The notes under the pieces: model-generated | What the model was told of the DNA's origin: nothing | What the model saw: only the letters and a program-made list of their open reading frames with translations | Database searches by the model: none | Translations under genes and position numbers: made by a program | Shown here: in pieces, positions 13 through 16,625 of the stretch | Layout: the number at the start of each line of letters is the position of its first letter | Numbering within the stretch: the stretch's first letter is position 1 | From: Candidatus Falkowiibacteriota bacterium | Lineage (GTDB): Bacteria > Patescibacteriota > Patescibacteriia > Patescibacteriales > UBA12465 | DNA: 34,999 bases | NCBI GenBank assembly: GCA_009995495.1 | Contig: JAACPL010000016.1 | Span: forward strand, 1-34,999 | Reading direction: 5' to 3'

Positions 13-1071
13 TTACCTGGTAAATCCAGGCACAGAAACTATCTGACCATTTTCCCTGACGACGTCAGGATGACCAGTGGCGGGTGCCACCACGTCCCTG
101 CGGCTGCCGGCAAGAGCGGTCAACAGCATGCCGCTGACGACCAAAAACTTGCCTGCTTGTGGCTCGGGCAAGCCAGTGATTTCACCGAACTTCTGTTCGG
201 TGATTCCGTCAGCAGCGTCGAATTCGCTGAACGATGCGGCCACGCGTGGCGCGGGGGCGGCGGGAATAAGAACCCTTCCATCATTTAACCGCAGCATGTG
301 AGGCGTGAGGTTGACGAACTTTTCGCCAAATGCGTACTTGATGAACGCCTCAATCTCGGCGTGGTTCGGATAGCCACCCCAGAAAGCGCTACCACCTTTC
401 TGAGCAAGGCCGGAACCACCGTTCCAACCGTCAAAACTTTCCTTGAGAACAGAGCAAAGCTGCCCGTCTCCGTAGAAGTTCACCTCGCCGTCACCGGAGA
501 GTACGAGCAGCTGGTCGTACTGACCGAAGAGGCGATCAGTAACGGTGGCGCACTTGCTGTGAGGCAAGTGGACAACGGTCAAACGGCCAGCTACTTCGCG
601 GCCAGCGATAGCGGCTTCGGCAGCTTCTTCCTGCTCGGGTGTGATACCCTGAGCGGAACGATCGGCCAAGCGGACAGCTGCTACCTCCTCGGAAGTGGCG
701 CCCATTTCCACCATCGCCGGGATGTACCCAGAGTCGTTCGCGGCAATAAGCTGCTGCCAGCGGTTCGGCTCCAGACCGAGCAGACTCAGAACCTGCAGAA
801 TACTGGCAGGTTCAGAGGAGCGGTCGCCATGATGGTCGACCAGAATCACACCCTCAGGCAGATCAATGTCGGTGTTCAACTCCACGAGCACCGGAACCCC
901 ACCGGCCGCGGCGACAGCAGAGATTTCAGCGGCATAGACGGAGGCAGCGGCGCCCCAACCTAAACCTGCATTATGAATTTCGGCGCCGGACTGAGCCAGC
1001 ACCTTGGAAATCTCAACCATTTCGGCGTCAGCACCGCCGAGAAAAAATACTAATTTTTTCATTGTTTTCAT
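13..1071 (-). CDS. DHH-superfamily-like phosphoesterase (GC-rich, probably acquired)
   Basis: 352 residues. I see a core like that of DHH phosphoesterases: an N-terminal LGGADAEM segment (10-18), the motif LVDHHGDRSSEPASIL with D79-H80-H81, a later Asp in AANDSGY (D113), and a Gly-rich GGSAFWGG (226-233) where DHHA1-type proteins often have their GGGH motif. DHH enzymes use these Asp/His residues to bind metals and cut phosphodiesters in nucleic acids or small nucleotides; the substrate here is unknown. The start is supported by a strong Shine-Dalgarno (GAGGAGG, 1078-1084) seven bases upstream. The gene is far richer in G+C, and in Ala/Gly codons, than all others here, which suggests recent transfer. 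No intrinsic terminator is visible between it and the strong promoter at 2491-2519, so it may be the distal gene of that long structured transcript. DHH family membership is probable, exact family unknown. Confidence 0.6.
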   Translation of the reverse strand: MKTMKKLVFFLGGADAEMVEISKVLAQSGAEIHNAGLGWGAAASVYAAEISAVAAAGGVPVLVELNTDIDLPEGVILVDHHGDRSSEPASILQVLSLLGLEPNRWQQLIAANDSGYIPAMVEMGATSEEVAAVRLADRSAQGITPEQEEAAEAAIAGREVAGRLTVVHLPHSKCATVTDRLFGQYDQLLVLSGDGEVNFYGDGQLCSVLKESFDGWNGGSGLAQKGGSAFWGGYPNHAEIEAFIKYAFGEKFVNLTPHMLRLNDGRVLIPAAPAPRVAASFSEFDAADGITEQKFGEITGLPEPQAGKFLVVSGMLLTALAGSRRDVVAPATGHPDVVRENGQIVSVPGFTR

Positions 1072-1539
1072 TTTTGCCTCCTCGCAACATTGTCCGGAGT
1101 ATTCTAAGTTCCAAAAATTTGAAATTCAAAATACTCCAAACAAAATGCTTCTTAAAAAATGAAAAACTTTTTTTATTTTTTTATTTTTTTCTTTCAAAGA
1201 ACATTAACACTTTTCTTTTTTTCTCTTCTAAGCACACCATTTCCAATGAAGTGCTTGGGAAAGAAGATAATATTGAACATATTATCTCACTTCTATCTGC
1301 GAACTTTATATCGCCTTGTGTTGCCTTTTACTTAAAGTAGCAACTTCTCTCAGATTAACTTGTAGATGTTTAATAGCTTTCTGTTTTCAGAAGCCGTATC
1401 CGGTGCATGCCCGGGATTTCTTTTGGTATTTCTCTGCTCCATGTCGGACCACAGAGAATTTGAGAGACAATTGGTACCATTATACTTTGGTACCAGGTAC
1501 CGCCTAAATAGCGGCGATACCATTTAAAATTTTTCATAC
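1072..1539 (-). other. gene-free leader with serial hairpins upstream of the DHH-like gene
   Basis: No convincing gene. Read on the minus strand the stretch is a chain of stem-loops: 1096-1137 (GGAGTATT/AATACTCC, just before the ribosome binding site), 1230-1256 (AAGCAC/GTGCTT with an inner CATT/AATG), 1266-1288 (perfect 9-bp AGATAATAT stem, 5-base loop), about 1318-1345 (GTTGC/GCAAC with inner TACT/AGTA), about 1380-1395 (TTCTG/CAGAA), about 1436-1460 (CTCTG/CAGAG) and 1496-1521 (GGTATCGCC/GGCGGTACC). The last one has a U-G pair only on the minus strand; on the plus strand it would be an A-C mismatch. None is followed by a U tract, so none looks like a terminator. Probably the 3' part of the same transcript as the structured RNA next to it. 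Confidence 0.45.
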
Positions 1540-2484
1540 TTACAATTTTGGTCATAACAATCACTAATAAATTATGAGTAACTCTTATGACCAAAATTAT
1601 TTAAAGAACTATTTCTTCCGAGGAAGTTTCCGGGTCCCAAGCTTATTCAAGGTTTGAGGGCTCGGCCGATCTCCTCGTAAGGGACGGTCGCATTCACCGC
1701 TTTTCACCGGCCATTTTCTTCCACTGATGGGAAAATACGGACACTAATTACCCAGATCGCCTGCGCCTTTGACTACGGTTTGCGACGTAATCTCCAGATC
1801 AGCTCGGTTAAATGCTTGGCTTTAAATTAATTAAAATTTAAAGGCAAACAACAAATAGTTGTTATTCTTAGGACATGGACTCTCTCCGTTACGGTATATC
1901 CATTTCAATCTCCTAAAAATACTAAGCTATTAATTTAAGGTTCAGACTTCCTATACCCTAGAAAGCTTGAGGCGATACTTTATCCGGGCTCGCCTCGGAC
2001 TTATCTTGTTGATAAGGAACTGAAGGGGAGTTTGAAGAAATTACTATTCAGACGACATCGCCATGGGGTGCGAGCGTTAATTCTGAAAAGATGCCGCCTC
2101 ATTCAAGACTAAGCATTTTCTTATATTTATTTCCAATCTTATCCTTATAAAAAGATAGTCATGGTTCGTATTATTTAAGTCCGGCTCTCTCCTTCCAGTC
2201 TTAATGTTTTTTTAAATTTAAGGTACTTTTGTCTCTCGCGGAGACTGTATTCCCCTCATCTCGCTTCTTATCTTTTTATTAGACAAGAGGAAGATCATTC
2301 GCCGCGAGGCGTGCTTCCCGTTTATTACCCTTAAAGAATTGGACTCCCCCTAGACTCCCTCCTTTCTAAGGCTCGCCACTCTAATTCGCCGGATAACAGT
2401 GACAGGAATTAATATTTTTGTTTCGTTTAAGAATGTACTGACTTAACGTTTGACATAAGCAGTGTTTTGTTTCCTCATCGTTAT
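1540..2484 (-). ncRNA. large unidentified structured RNA (about 0.95 kb)
   Basis: No long ORF on either strand, G+C locally higher than the flanks, and dense stem-loops. On the minus strand: 2289-2318 (GGAAG/CTTCC enclosing CGCC-TCGC-GGCG), 2267-2287 (CTTGTCT/AGATAAG), 2231-2245 (GTCTC/GAGAC), 2000-2016 (CTTATC/GATAAG), 1969-1996 (GAGGCGA/TCGCCTC), 1947-1965 (CTTTCTA/TAGGAAG), 1847-1863 (AACAAC/GTTGTT), 1820-1843 (9 bp) and a 14-bp inverted repeat at 1544-1557/1585-1598. Two of these stems (2267-2287, 1947-1965) need a G-U pair that exists only on the minus strand, matching the direction of the strong promoter just upstream. GAGGAA near the 5' end (2471-2476) can pair with TTCCTC at 1620-1625, possibly closing the molecule. 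It lacks the signature sequences of RNase P RNA, a tmRNA T-arm/CCA end, group I P7 or group II domain V that I know. Class unknown; the 3' end is a guess. Confidence 0.55.
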
Positions 2485-2519
2485 GCAAGAAGTATAGCAT
2501 TAATTTAAATATTTGTCAA
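2484..2519 (-). promoter_or_regulatory. strong sigma70 promoter of the structured RNA
   Basis: On the minus strand -35 TTGACA (2514-2519), a 17-base spacer and -10 TATACT (2491-2496), one base from consensus. The predicted start is near 2484. No start codon with a gene follows for over 1.4 kb, so the product is an RNA or a mRNA with a very long leader. Confidence 0.8.
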
Positions 2520-2813: not shown

Positions 2814-3641
2814 ATGAATGAAAAAATACTCTTAGGCCTTGGCCTAACTAAAGTTCAATCAGAAATCTTTAACTGTTTGCTCCAAAATGGCCCTAAAAAA
2901 GCGAGTGATATCGCTAAAATAGCAAAAAGACCCCGAGGCGTTGCCTACAAGGGTCTAGAAGAATTAATTGATTTGGACCTAGTTTTAAAAAAAGAGAGTA
3001 AACTCGGGGTGGCCTTATTTACAGCCGAGCATCCCTCTAATTTAGAGAAGGTTTTGGAACGTCGCGAAAAAGAGCTCAACAAAACAAAAAAAGAATTTAC
3101 CGCCTCCCTCCCTGATCTCGTCTCCGCCTATAACTTAGTTAGCAATAAACCGGGGGTGAGATTTTACGAGGGCGAAGAAGGAGTAAAGAAAGTTCTAGAA
3201 GATACTTTAATTAGTAATCCTGATAAAAAACTTTACACCTTTTCTGATGTTGCTAGCTATGCAACCTATCTTAGCGATTGGAACACTAACTACTACGCGC
3301 CCAAAAGAAAAAAGCTCGGTGTATATGAGAAGGTAATTATACCTAATAATGCACCAGCCCTGAATTACATGAAGAATTATAAATCTAATGAAGTCACGGA
3401 TATTTTATTCGTTGATCATAAAACCTACCCATTCGCGACTGAAATAAATATCTATAATAATAAAGTTTCCTTTGTGACCTTCTCGTCAGATTCTATGGTT
3501 GGAGTTATTATTGAAAATAAAGAAATATATAAAACTCTGCTTTCTATTTTCAATTTTATCTGGGATTTTGGAAAAAAGAATTTAGCCGGTTCTCAACCAG
3601 CATGGCTTAAGAAACAAATTAAGCTAGATGAGTCGGTTTAA
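2814..3641 (+). CDS. TrmB-family HTH transcriptional regulator
   Basis: 275 residues. Residues 5-75 form a winged helix of the TrmB type: GLTKVQSEIFNCLL, then KASDIAKIAKRPRGVAYKGLEEL as the recognition region, and a wing near LVLKKESKLGVALF. A basic helical linker (about 78-115) follows, then an effector-like domain from FYEGEEGVKKVLEDTL (about 137) to the end. TrmB proteins regulate transcription, many in response to sugars; the ligand here is unknown. The start is preceded by AT-rich sequence without a Shine-Dalgarno and lies about 160 bases after a consensus promoter. Its last 23 bases overlap the convergent 858-residue gene. DNA-binding assignment is firm, target unknown. Confidence 0.8.
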   Translation: MNEKILLGLGLTKVQSEIFNCLLQNGPKKASDIAKIAKRPRGVAYKGLEELIDLDLVLKKESKLGVALFTAEHPSNLEKVLERREKELNKTKKEFTASLPDLVSAYNLVSNKPGVRFYEGEEGVKKVLEDTLISNPDKKLYTFSDVASYATYLSDWNTNYYAPKRKKLGVYEKVIIPNNAPALNYMKNYKSNEVTDILFVDHKTYPFATEINIYNNKVSFVTFSSDSMVGVIIENKEIYKTLLSIFNFIWDFGKKNLAGSQPAWLKKQIKLDESV

Positions 3642-6195
3642 CAATATATTTTTGCACAAAACGTAAAACTTCCAGCAAACTTGTTGCTTCTTGCGCCTCG
3701 GCTAAAAGCTCTTCGCGATTCTTATTAACTTGCTCAAAATATTCGGCCGGTGTTTTTTCCAGACTCGCAAAATAATGTTTTAGAATCGGACGCACAACAC
3801 TTTCGGCATACTTTAATTGCTTCTTATTATCAAGGGTTAAAATTTTACCGCCAATTAAACCGTCGCTCGCGGCTACAACCTGATCACTATTAATGAGAAG
3901 GTCAGAATCATTTTTATAAAAATACGTACTATATGGCTCTTTAAATTTAACCACACTTTCTTTGGCTTCAAAATTACCTCGGAAACCAAAGCTCGCCGAG
4001 CCAACATCCGGACAAACAAAATTTAACGATAAATAATCTTTTTTAACTGATTTATCATATCCAGCCTTAGAATCAGTTTTTATTTTTCCCAGATGATCCT
4101 GTAGGCGCTGAAAATAAGCAAGAGAAGAAGAATTTTTATCCAACTTTGATTTTTTTTCATTAATAGTATCACGAGTAATCTTACAAACGGTATTCAAGAT
4201 TACTTTTGCTTCCGGACTTTCAGGATTATTTAAAACATCTAGCCCTTGCTCCTTACCAACTTGTTCAAAATTACGAATCACCGCCCCTAAAATATCATAG
4301 CGAGCTTCATTGAGATGACCGACCTTGGTTCCATTAGCGGACAATATCCAAGTCAGCTCTTCAAGCGCATAGCCAATATATTCTTCCTTTTCGGCGCCCG
4401 ACACTGATTCCTGAACCATAGCTAAAAAGGCTTCCTTAAACGCCGGTTGAATCGCTAAATTTTTGACCACACTACTATAACGCTCATATTCATCTTTATT
4501 GCCATTAATAAATTCCTGATATCTTTGAACATTGATATTATCTAAACCGAAGGTACTGATGATTTTTTCATACTGCTCTGCTTCACGATTACCAATTTCA
4601 CTCGCCTTCTGACGCGCCTCAATTTCACTTTTGCCGTAACGCGCCTGATAATTATTAACCTGAATTTCATCACAAATAACCAAATCGACTTTCCTATTTT
4701 GGTTATTAAGCCAAAATAAATAGCCATAAAGATCAATTGGCTTAGCGAATTTCTTTTCACCGGATAGCGTTTGTTCCCAGGATATTAAATCTTTAGAAAT
4801 ACCAACGGGGAAATACAAAGGGGCTTGTTCGGGAATATTTTCTGGTATTACTTTACTGTTCTCAAAATTACTAAAACCCTTAGGCAATTTAGTCTCTTCT
4901 CGTCCGTAAACCAACTGATCCATCTTTTTTTCCAAAGCAATCTGTAGGGGCAGGATTTGTTGCAGTTTTCTAATTGTCTCTTCGTAAACAACTTGCTCTT
5001 CAGTTTTTGGTTGCGGAAATTCTTTACTATATTTTTCCATTCTTTCTGACCAATTAAAATTCTGTGTTATTTCCTCGCCATTCTTACTTTTCTCATCTTC
5101 AAAATCTTTATAAACCATCTGCATAATCTCGGGGCTATACTGCTCAGCCTCAGCTGTTTTTTGATAATAGGCAATCATTTCTTTTAATCTCTCAGCGCTA
5201 AATTTTTTATGATTCTGAAAATCATTCATGACTAATTCTCTGTTATGCTCGCCTAAACCAAGATCATTCAGGGCTGCGCCAAGATTATCTTCTGTAATAG
5301 ATTGATTTTCAATGCTATGTGCCGAGGCAATCCCGCTCATAACATCTTCACCAAGCTGGCCATATTGTGCATTTAACTGAGCGGCAGTTTTCCCTAACTC
5401 CTGGACATTTTGAGTTCTATTTTTACTATCGGAATTTAATTCTTGAACAAAATTAGCAATTACTTCTTTGGGGCTATCTTCTGTTTTTAAAACTTGCTCT
5501 AATTCTAATAATTTTAATTCTACTCGAGAAATTATGGCTGAAAAAGCCTCAGAGAAACTCAAAGTTTTTTGATAAAGAGAGGCGTTGATAACATTATTTA
5601 ATTTTTTAGCATCTTCCTTTATGCCAGAAATAAATAATTTATAATTGTCTGTAAAATAATTAAAAACCTCCGGGTCATTTTTAATTAACCTGAGGTTTTT
5701 GTCTAAAAAAAGATTAACTTCGAATAATTTAGCCAACACTTGATCGTATTCTTGATTATTAATTTCAGCATTATCTTCGTCTGTATAACGTTCTAAATCA
5801 ATAAATAACTTTAACCCAATATCATCAATAGCTTTATCTTCGGGAAATTCATTGTAGTATTTAACCAAATACTCTTTAGGAAATTCATTGGTAAACATTA
5901 CCCCCTTAGCTAAATTTCGATCGGCATAATTTAAACTTTTAAGAAAATCAAAATTTTCTTTTTCAAAAAACTTTAATGTGTCGCCCTGATATCTTTCAAA
6001 AAAAAGATGTACCTTTTTATTATCGTCTAAATCGGCGATTTCTTGGCTTCCGGGACAATCTTCATTTACAAGATTAAGAGCTTCACTAATGACCCGCCGA
6101 TTATTCACGCTAAAATCACCCTTCTCATTGTCCGCAGGATCTTTTGGTTTCTTTTTATTTTCCTCGATATTAAAAACTCCACCCTCTTTAAACAT
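3619..6195 (-). CDS. large protein with a cyclodipeptide-synthase-like (CDPS) domain
   Basis: 858 residues, no signal peptide or membrane segment. Residues 1-450 are acidic, mostly helical and unrecognised. About 458-645 resembles tRNA-dependent cyclodipeptide synthases, class-I-aaRS-like enzymes that join two aminoacyl residues taken from aminoacyl-tRNAs. I see YFPVGISKDL with S467, VDLVICDEIQVNNYQ (503-517) followed by an EARQKASEIGNREAEQ helix, YALEEL with Y609 and E613, and Y633. From memory of AlbC, the catalytic set is S37, Y178, E182 and Y202; the spacings here (142, 4, 20) match its spacings (141, 4, 20) almost exactly. Residues 646-858 are an extra unrecognised C-terminal part. CDPSs are normally about 240 residues, so this is greatly enlarged. 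Ribosome binding site GGAGAG lies about 11 bases before the ATG. Family assignment is by motif reading only. Confidence 0.6.
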   Translation of the reverse strand: MFKEGGVFNIEENKKKPKDPADNEKGDFSVNNRRVISEALNLVNEDCPGSQEIADLDDNKKVHLFFERYQGDTLKFFEKENFDFLKSLNYADRNLAKGVMFTNEFPKEYLVKYYNEFPEDKAIDDIGLKLFIDLERYTDEDNAEINNQEYDQVLAKLFEVNLFLDKNLRLIKNDPEVFNYFTDNYKLFISGIKEDAKKLNNVINASLYQKTLSFSEAFSAIISRVELKLLELEQVLKTEDSPKEVIANFVQELNSDSKNRTQNVQELGKTAAQLNAQYGQLGEDVMSGIASAHSIENQSITEDNLGAALNDLGLGEHNRELVMNDFQNHKKFSAERLKEMIAYYQKTAEAEQYSPEIMQMVYKDFEDEKSKNGEEITQNFNWSERMEKYSKEFPQPKTEEQVVYEETIRKLQQILPLQIALEKKMDQLVYGREETKLPKGFSNFENSKVIPENIPEQAPLYFPVGISKDLISWEQTLSGEKKFAKPIDLYGYLFWLNNQNRKVDLVICDEIQVNNYQARYGKSEIEARQKASEIGNREAEQYEKIISTFGLDNINVQRYQEFINGNKDEYERYSSVVKNLAIQPAFKEAFLAMVQESVSGAEKEEYIGYALEELTWILSANGTKVGHLNEARYDILGAVIRNFEQVGKEQGLDVLNNPESPEAKVILNTVCKITRDTINEKKSKLDKNSSSLAYFQRLQDHLGKIKTDSKAGYDKSVKKDYLSLNFVCPDVGSASFGFRGNFEAKESVVKFKEPYSTYFYKNDSDLLINSDQVVAASDGLIGGKILTLDNKKQLKYAESVVRPILKHYFASLEKTPAEYFEQVNKNREELLAEAQEATSLLEVLRFVQKYIVKPTHLA

Positions 6196-15988: not shown

Positions 15989-16065
15989 GGGCAATTAGCT
16001 CAGTTGGTTAGAGCGCAACACTGATAATGTTGAGGTCGGAGGTTCGAGTCCTCCATTGCCCACCA
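15989..16065 (+). tRNA. tRNA-Ile (GAT)
   Basis: Acceptor GGGCAAT/ATTGCCC, D arm GCTC/GAGC, anticodon arm CAACA-CTGATAA-TGTTG giving GAT, T arm with TTCGAGT. The 3' CCA is encoded (16063-16065), unlike in its next three neighbours. Confidence 0.97.
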
Positions 16066-16086: not shown

Positions 16087-16159
16087 AGCGGGATAGAGCA
16101 GTTGGCAGCTCGCCAGGCCCATAACCTGGAGGTCGTCGGTTCGAGTCCGACTCCCGCAA
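16087..16159 (+). tRNA. initiator tRNA-fMet (CAT)
   Basis: Anticodon arm CCAGG-CCCATAA-CCTGG gives CAT. Two initiator marks are visible: the first base pair is unpaired (A1 opposite A72 after GCGGGA/TCCCGC) and the D arm has A11-U24. The anticodon stem has two rather than three consecutive G-C pairs next to the loop. The 3' CCA is not encoded. Confidence 0.9.
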
Positions 16160-16185
16160 CAAGTTTTATTAAAAACTTTGCCGAT

Positions 16186-16501
16186 GCCTCGGTAGCTCAG
16201 TGGTAGAGCAAAGGACTGATTTTCGGTCCGTTCTATGGTAACATAGAAATGAAAATCGGGTGAATTCGGGGAAACCTTATTTCATTAGCAATAATGAAAA
16301 GGCAATCCCGAGCCAAGCCTTAATTGGGATAAAGAATTAAGGAAGGTGTAGAGACTAGCGGGTGAGCCCAACAATAACCCCGCCGCGAGCGCCCGACTCC
16401 GTACTTATTAATTAAGCGGAGATGATATAGTCCAAACCTTAAGGAAACTTAAGTAGTCAAGGAAAATCCTTGTGTCGTCAGTTCGATTCTGACCCGGGGC
16501 A
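16186..16501 (+). tRNA. tRNA-Phe (GAA) interrupted by a group I intron
   Basis: Exons 16186-16217 and 16462-16501 join to a normal tRNA: acceptor GCCTCGG/CCGGGGC, D arm GCTC/GAGC, anticodon arm AAGGA-CTGAAAA-TCCTT giving GAA, T arm GTCAG-TTCGATT-CTGAC. The insertion lies between U33 and G34. CCA is not encoded. Without splicing the anticodon arm cannot form. Confidence 0.95.
16218..16461 (+). ncRNA. group I self-splicing intron (IC3-like) in tRNA-Phe
   Basis: 244 nt, no ORF. The guide GGTCC (about 16225-16229) pairs with the 5' exon GGACT, giving a G-U pair at the splice site, as required. The first bases GATTTTC are the exact complement of the 3' exon start GAAAATC, a P10-type pairing. TTCTATG-GTAA-CATAGAA forms a P2-like hairpin. 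AATTCGGGGAAACC and GGCAATCCCGAGCCAAGCC carry the P/Q core. GACTA (16353-16357) and TAGTCC (16428-16433) form P7, and TTAAG-GAAA-CTTAA a P9 hairpin. The intron ends in G. It closely resembles tRNA introns of cyanobacteria. Confidence 0.95.
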
Positions 16502-16541: not shown

Positions 16542-16617
16542 CGGGGTGTGGCCCAGCTCGGTTTAAGGCGTCTGGTTTGGGACCAGAAGATCGAGAGTTC
16601 GAATCTCTCCACCCCGA
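16542..16617 (+). tRNA. tRNA-Pro (TGG)
   Basis: Acceptor CGGGGTG/CACCCCG, anticodon arm TCTGG-TTTGGGA-CCAGA giving TGG, T arm with TTCGAAT. CCA is not encoded. Confidence 0.95.
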
Positions 16618-16625
16618 CACAAAAA

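Follow-up and report, generated by a model that had tools for sequence, protein, structure and literature searches.

What is encoded in the 1.4 kb of minus strand that separates a strong promoter from the first gene downstream of it? The window (the whole 34,999-nucleotide stretch of DNA that was analysed, to which all positions refer unless stated) makes up a single contig (C18) in a genome of 0.94 Mb. The first-pass annotation, made from sequence alone, had proposed that a near-consensus minus-strand promoter at 2491-2519 opens into about 1.4 kb without a gene, and that the product may be a new class of large structured RNA.

A gene-free stretch behind a near-consensus promoter

Both the promoter and the absence of genes were confirmed. 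The promoter (2491-2519, minus), TTGACA-N17-TATACT with TG ahead of the -10, matches the consensus at 11 of 12 positions; behind it, the minus strand of 1072-2490 contains no convincing gene. No ORF longer than 92 amino acids is present on either strand between 1072 and 2813, and no open frame common to the homologous loci was found. Among 40 sites across 7.7 kb, the promoter (read from 2519 to 2491) has one of the highest scores, exceeded solely by the divergent 12/12 promoter (2616-2644, plus) that faces a gene for a TrmB-type transcriptional regulator. In 10 further genomes of the order (the congeneric G005 and nine more), an equivalent promoter occupies the same position next to the TrmB orthologue, mostly as TTGACAAtATT...TGnTATACT and in looser form in G106 and G095. 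All of these TrmB-side promoters lead into a long RNA region except those of G039 and G095, which lead directly into genes, the RNA being absent. An inverted repeat lies just past the start site, at about 2447-2486 (minus), and recurs at the same place in homologues (CAAGCT...AGCTTG in many genomes), including G039, where the RNA is missing; it could be a TrmB operator, an inference that rests on sequence alone.

No Rfam family reached the gathering score in 1000-2830, and a permissive search of the same region returned only chance-level matches. Likewise, cmscan at the gathering score detected no RNA family at the RNA position in 16 further homologous loci. The Rfam 15 search covers OLE, ROOL, GOLLD, raiA, RNase P, tmRNA, group I and II introns and rRNA, and the threshold was met for none of them. 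A 16S-like segment on the plus strand (GGGTGCGAGCGTTAATTC) was rejected, there being no Rfam rRNA at that place and the conserved structure lying on the minus strand. Elsewhere in the window, a group I intron (16208-16454, plus; 94.8 bits) is located between tRNA-Met (16087-16160) and tRNA-Pro (16542-16618).

The minus strand folds at lower energy than the plus strand in every 250-nt window, with z-scores of -5.4 to -7.9 for 250-nt windows over 1072-1721; the 896-nt fold, at z = -2.2, is modest by itself. The decisive evidence for a structured RNA is not folding energy but covariation in homologues.

Conserved structure and covariation on the minus strand

G005 has the same order of TrmB gene, facing promoters, RNA and first gene. 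Its RNA region is about 570 nt, compared with 1.4 kb in the window; the core region is 76% identical and a 27-base element at the first gene is identical in both. This syntenic copy defined a 76-nt core (1613-1688). Plain blastn of the RNA against 60 relatives found only one long homologue and three weak ones, and members beyond these were reached by searching near TrmB orthologues and, after that, by means of R1, a covariance model built from seven core sequences. At E ≤ 0.1, R1 detected the core in 15 of the 111 genomes searched in the order (12 of them below 1e-9); it also detected it in 8 other genomes of the class among 381 sampled (7 at about 1e-9 or better), and outside the class in G620, which belongs to another class. 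The 21 solid loci, 20 at 47-84 bits plus the weaker G106 (30 bits, but beside TrmB), fall in several families of the class of the window, mostly in its order, and in the one other class. Matches in G038 and G207 (24-26 bits), which overlap opposite-strand genes, were set aside as chance. The second of two tandem core copies in G075 (L101:4334-4408 and 5639-5713, plus) scores 35 bits and was not counted as a separate locus; a DUF3228-like gene separates the copies, and each has its own promoter-like sites ahead of it.

Only a sample of Patescibacteria genomes was searched with R1. The named records among the RNA carriers are Candidatus Falkowbacteria, and a strict core pattern in GTDB contigs matched three Falkowbacteria records and gave one unconfirmed match in Pedobacter; scanning the window protein across GTDB contigs found nothing. 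In viral contigs the core pattern gave no true match, and a 15-mer gave 99 stretches, of which 80 were fetched and none fitted R1. Phage and plasmid records gave no match.

The 3' core (1613-1688, minus; model R1) consists of two stacked helices, an internal loop and an apical loop that contains AACC in most members. When 21 core sequences were aligned without reference to structure, double changes were observed in 15 of 21 pairs. They fill 79 cells versus 24.8 in shuffles, a value reached by 0 of 500 shuffles, and at most 16 cells remain once the partner is slid. A pseudoknot lies upstream: its 5' strand, GUUUGC (1844-1849, minus), pairs with 1778-1783, the loop of the hairpin GAUUACG[UCGCAAAC]CGUAGUC (1771-1792, minus). 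The pseudoknot is present in 12 of 20 loci; shuffled sequences give 0.18 and the reverse complement a single locus. Its general form is GUUYGN with an apical loop NCRAAC, the window pair GUUUGC/GCAAAC being replaced elsewhere by GUUCGC/GCGAAC, GUUCGU/ACGAAC or GUUCGA/UCGAAC. Both helices covary, with a score that 0 of 500 shuffles reached, in rows chosen for pairing.

Further upstream, the helix UUAGGA-GAUUGAA-AUGGA with GGAGAGAG-UCCAU-G-UCCUAA (1868-1916, minus; 7 sequences) has double changes in 5 of 11 pairs, unmatched in 500 shuffles; in the six loci where helix and core both occur, it is placed 193-220 nt upstream of the core. In the 5' domain, GAAUU (2383-2387) pairs with AAUUC (2336-2340) on the minus strand in six genomes, with flanking AGAGUGGC ... 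GUCC; 3 of the 5 pairs of this helix (2336-2387) show double changes, equalled by 3 of 500 shuffles. A hairpin at 2181-2198 (minus) has an invariant loop, AAGGAGAGAG; GGAGAGAG occurs 39 times in 20 RNAs, compared with 0.6 in dinucleotide shuffles, often in the form of this loop capping unrelated stems. Hairpins of this kind could act as a CsrA-type sponge (GGA loops) or a ribosome decoy (AAGGAG loops), roles that were considered only. Another hairpin, with the loop AUGCUUG (mostly CAUGCUUG), is found in one or two copies in many members at shifting positions. The f66 RNAs (n = 4), at about 380 nt, have a nearly complete fold (G157, among the smallest members, z = -7.0), and in them a terminator-like hairpin is placed between core and boxA.

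Altogether, covariation is present in five separate elements of the RNA family. A MAFFT alignment of the whole window (G000) and G005 RNAs was unusable owing to large insertions, and each element was therefore aligned by itself. In alignments A2, A6 and A7, pieces that are not adjacent are joined and the rows were picked for a recognisable element, so their counts lean toward structure; the contiguous core alignments A1 and A4 are free of that bias, with the reservation that A4 members past the first seven came from a model of the same structure. Covariation was assessed by our own counting and shuffles, not by R-scape.

Most of the initial claims could be checked against these results. The Rfam/Infernal search and the search for covarying homologues that had been proposed as checks were both run: no family matched, which bears out the reported lack of RNase P, tmRNA, rRNA and group I/II intron signatures, and homologues with covarying pairs exist. 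The stems at 1496-1521, 1947-1965 and 2267-2287 had been said to close on the minus strand only through G-U pairs. This held for all three, each having one G-U pair on the minus strand where an A.C mismatch breaks the stem on the plus strand. The deduction that these pairs mark the minus strand as the RNA strand also held, covariation being found on the predicted strand. A real structured RNA family on the minus strand is very likely on the covariation, in the absence of transcript data, and to that extent the proposal of a new class of large structured RNA is supported.

The TrmB gene, boxA and the downstream operon

Homologues were to be sought next to related DHH genes; this required correction, the more constant neighbour being the divergent TrmB gene (2814-3641, plus; 275 aa). 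Its HTH domain matches PF01978 at E = 1.8e-10 (41 bits, cut-off 25.6). Of the 21 loci, 16 have a TrmB gene beside the RNA; in 15 of these it is directly divergent, and in G040 its distance from the RNA is 2.7 kb. Homologues of the window's TrmB protein at the 15 other loci match at E values of 1e-80 to 1e-15. In G036b, where the contig stops 544 nt before the core, TrmB presence is undecidable. Convergent with the TrmB gene is an 858-aa protein (3619-6195, minus) with a weak cyclodipeptide-synthase-like segment (TIGR04539, E = 2.5e-7, under cut-off), homologues of which are found at the same place in G383, G318, G352 and G157.

A boxA-like element, GUUCUUUAAAUAA (1597-1609, minus), follows the core. 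It contains GTTCTTTAAAT, which agrees with the published consensus GYTCTTTAANA (PMC5725501) at 10 of 11 positions and meets the criterion for boxA. Elements of the type GTTCTTTGACAATTAAATA are found downstream of the core in nearly every locus. Past the core, 12 of 20 loci have a strict GTTCTTT, with 15 occurrences in total versus 0.6 expected; the other strand has none. The element resembles the 16S leaders of the same genomes (GAACTTTAACAATTGAACA in G139); weaker copies are found near +20 to +60. Several tandemly arranged near-consensus promoters precede the RNA in G045 and G054. Together, boxA and tandem promoters suggest rRNA-style transcription, an inference without NusB-S10 binding data.

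Past boxA is a long inverted repeat, AAUUUUGGUCAUAA ... UUAUGACCAAAAUU (1544-1598, minus), seen in the sequence and as a self-match in the genome search. A hairpin, GGAGUAUU ... AAUACUCC, followed by GGACAAUGUUGCGAGGAG with the RBS (1078-1137, minus), is supported by identity with G005, in which GAATACTCCGGACAATGTTGCGAGGAG is identical and lies immediately ahead of the first gene. No strong terminator was found ahead of 1071 in the leader 2490-1072. We infer, without transcript data, that the conserved RNA spans from the promoter to about 1613 and that 1612-1072 is further leader of the gene at 1071-13. The putative transcribed leader (1072-2490, minus), gene-free and homologous in order to that of G005, would comprise the large structured RNA, boxA, a spacer and the RBS. 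Two other features were observed in this region of homologous loci: CGCGGATTATTAnACGGG, possibly another structured element, is common to L102 (G045) and L103 (G036b) past boxA, and a second conserved non-coding stretch, about 65% identical between L057 (G046; upstream coordinates 1586-1824) and L056 (G052), lies between the core and the E2-like gene, ahead of the E1/E2/JAB genes.

In all 18 loci with usable downstream sequence, the core is followed by a gene in the same orientation, usually within about 120-840 nt; in G047 and G065 there is a small antisense gene immediately past the core. The first operon gene of the window (13-1071, minus; 352 aa), initially described simply as DHH, can be refined to a fusion of an NrN-like DHH phosphodiesterase with a Crn4-like (Unk_01) domain: residues 2-204 match the PDB entry for NrN, 9lq9, at E = 4e-32, and PADLOC reports DHH_CorA, with Unk_01 at 252-347. 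The G005 operon encodes a Crn4-like protein (its Unk_01-type protein matches Crn4b, 9r7b, at E = 3e-13), Csx3-AAA and a DEAH helicase. Csx3 is also present in the G036 and G054 operons, the latter with bpMoxR, and an NrN-like protein in that of G352. The G052 operon contains E1 and JAB, and the E2-like protein of G046 has a homologue in G052; in G074 a defence-type reverse transcriptase is encoded about 3 kb downstream. The G052 locus (L056) contains a compact ubiquitin-like conjugation set of E2-like, JAB and ThiF/E1 proteins, related to PRTRC families, and a 69-aa possible modifier spotted by eye only. A type III hammerhead ribozyme (L013:4381-4435, plus; E = 2e-7 for a 601-base search, short of the gathering score) lies between G005 operon genes. 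The Cas10 palm domain (PF22335) was detected in none of the 21 genomes, whose assemblies are 77-99% complete; the R1-bearing and neighbouring genomes are draft assemblies, and absences are accordingly provisional.

A leader or a free RNA: interpretation and comparison with known systems

Conserved structure on the minus strand, a conserved promoter, the TrmB neighbour, a boxA-like element between RNA and operon, and an operon of variable content are established. Our slight preference is for reading the new RNA family as the 5' leader of TrmB-linked, defence-type operons, aided by Nus factors at boxA and gating read-through; TrmB control, Nus binding and gating are all inferred. Under this reading, minus-strand 2490-1613 would encode the RNA-family member, with the transcript running on to 1072. 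TrmB would control the strong promoter, and Nus factors would bind the boxA elements as on rRNA, for which there are no binding data. RNA polymerase could thereby finish the long untranslated RNA, which would fold. The folded RNA, chiefly the 3' core beside boxA, would then set the level of transcription reaching the operon, whose genes are similar to accessory genes of anti-phage signalling; read-through is unmeasured. The leader is favoured because the RNA precedes the operon wherever this can be judged, because boxA lies between them, and because the same promoter without the RNA in G039 and G095 enters genes directly, which makes the operon the constant target of the promoter. Against it, a simple attenuator would not require an RNA of this size with a pseudoknot, conservation of the RNA does not depend on operon content, and in G047 and G065 the small antisense gene intervenes just past the core. 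The f66 terminator-like hairpin occupies the spot where gating would act; a clear post-core terminator is found only in f66, so gating is not a general anatomical feature. A bolder reading, no more than possible, is that a Nus-escorted, rRNA-like giant RNA controls orphan operons, second-messenger-degrading or ubiquitin-like and conflict-related, in Patescibacteria without Cas10, as an RNA-gated off-switch or counter-defence locus.

The main rival, against which we lean only slightly, is a free, trans-acting large RNA (an RNP scaffold, RNA-only assembly or ribozyme) made at high level in rRNA style and trimmed from a precursor, with the operon co-transcribed or reached by read-through. The ornate pseudoknotted fold kept irrespective of the downstream genes supports it, as do the tandem promoters of G045 and G054, the z-score of the G157 RNA and the f66 RNAs, which stop in a terminator-like hairpin directly past the core. 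However, the RNA is always ahead of an operon where this is visible, was never found alone, and has no constant separate protein partner except TrmB. A riboswitch-like attenuator that binds a ligand or RNA signal, for example a nucleotide second messenger, and switches the operon would suit the several operons encoding enzyme kinds that degrade cyclic oligoadenylate or SAM-AMP, and the f66 terminator past the core. We consider it unlikely: operon content varies (E1/E2/JAB, RT, helicase, MoxR) whereas the core does not, and no alternative terminator/antiterminator pairing has been shown. Conservation owing to regulatory sites in the DNA, to a decayed gene or to a piece of rRNA, and not to RNA structure, is all but excluded. 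The promoter region and start-site inverted repeat are indeed kept even without the RNA (G039), but compensatory changes occur in helices far from the promoter, the core covariation contradicts a DNA-level explanation, and no rRNA or protein match was found.

The comparison with OLE, ROOL and GOLLD made at the outset therefore needs correction, as a long leader RNA is at least as good a description as a free RNA, given that the RNA precedes an operon, with boxA between, wherever the downstream sequence is usable. Few large conserved bacterial RNAs have been described, and the functions of most are unknown. Like GOLLD, ROOL and OLE (PMC12286853), the family described here is hundreds of nucleotides long, with many helices, a pseudoknot and a poorly understood function, and, as in GOLLD, the 3' part is better conserved and the 5' part variable. 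Unlike them, it has no Rfam match, is followed by a TrmB-linked operon, possesses boxA-like elements and loop motifs of its own, and has a pattern not seen in viral contigs. ROOL and GOLLD are carried by phages or prophages, frequently close to tRNA islands (PMC12286853). No such setting was apparent here from tRNA positions, the nearest tRNA in the window being at 15,989, or from viral contigs and phage records, which gave no true match. The literature searched contained no published class of large RNA attributed to Patescibacteria. Large ornate RNAs as a broad kind are already known, and what is new is the RNA family and its setting.

As in boxA/Nus-dependent leaders of rRNA and suhB (PMC5725501), the boxA-like sequence, here of 16S-leader type, lies in a long untranslated RNA. 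In the case of suhB, boxA acts in repression (PMC5725501). The differences are that the escorted RNA is a new family and that boxA is ahead of a protein operon. The hammerhead ribozyme in the operon of the closest homologue is a separate small element and not part of the RNA. The role of the RNA family is testable, since its strand is known and a covariance model, a regulator and partly recognisable gene neighbours are available for it. The operon genes belong to the second-messenger turnover families of type III CRISPR accessories (NrN/DHH with CorA, PMC10600005; Crn3/Csx3; Crn4, which is Unk_01). Unlike in type III CRISPR systems, they follow a large RNA, usually with a TrmB regulator, in genomes where no Cas10 palm domain was detected, which raises the question of which signal such ring-nuclease-type and NrN-type enzymes destroy.
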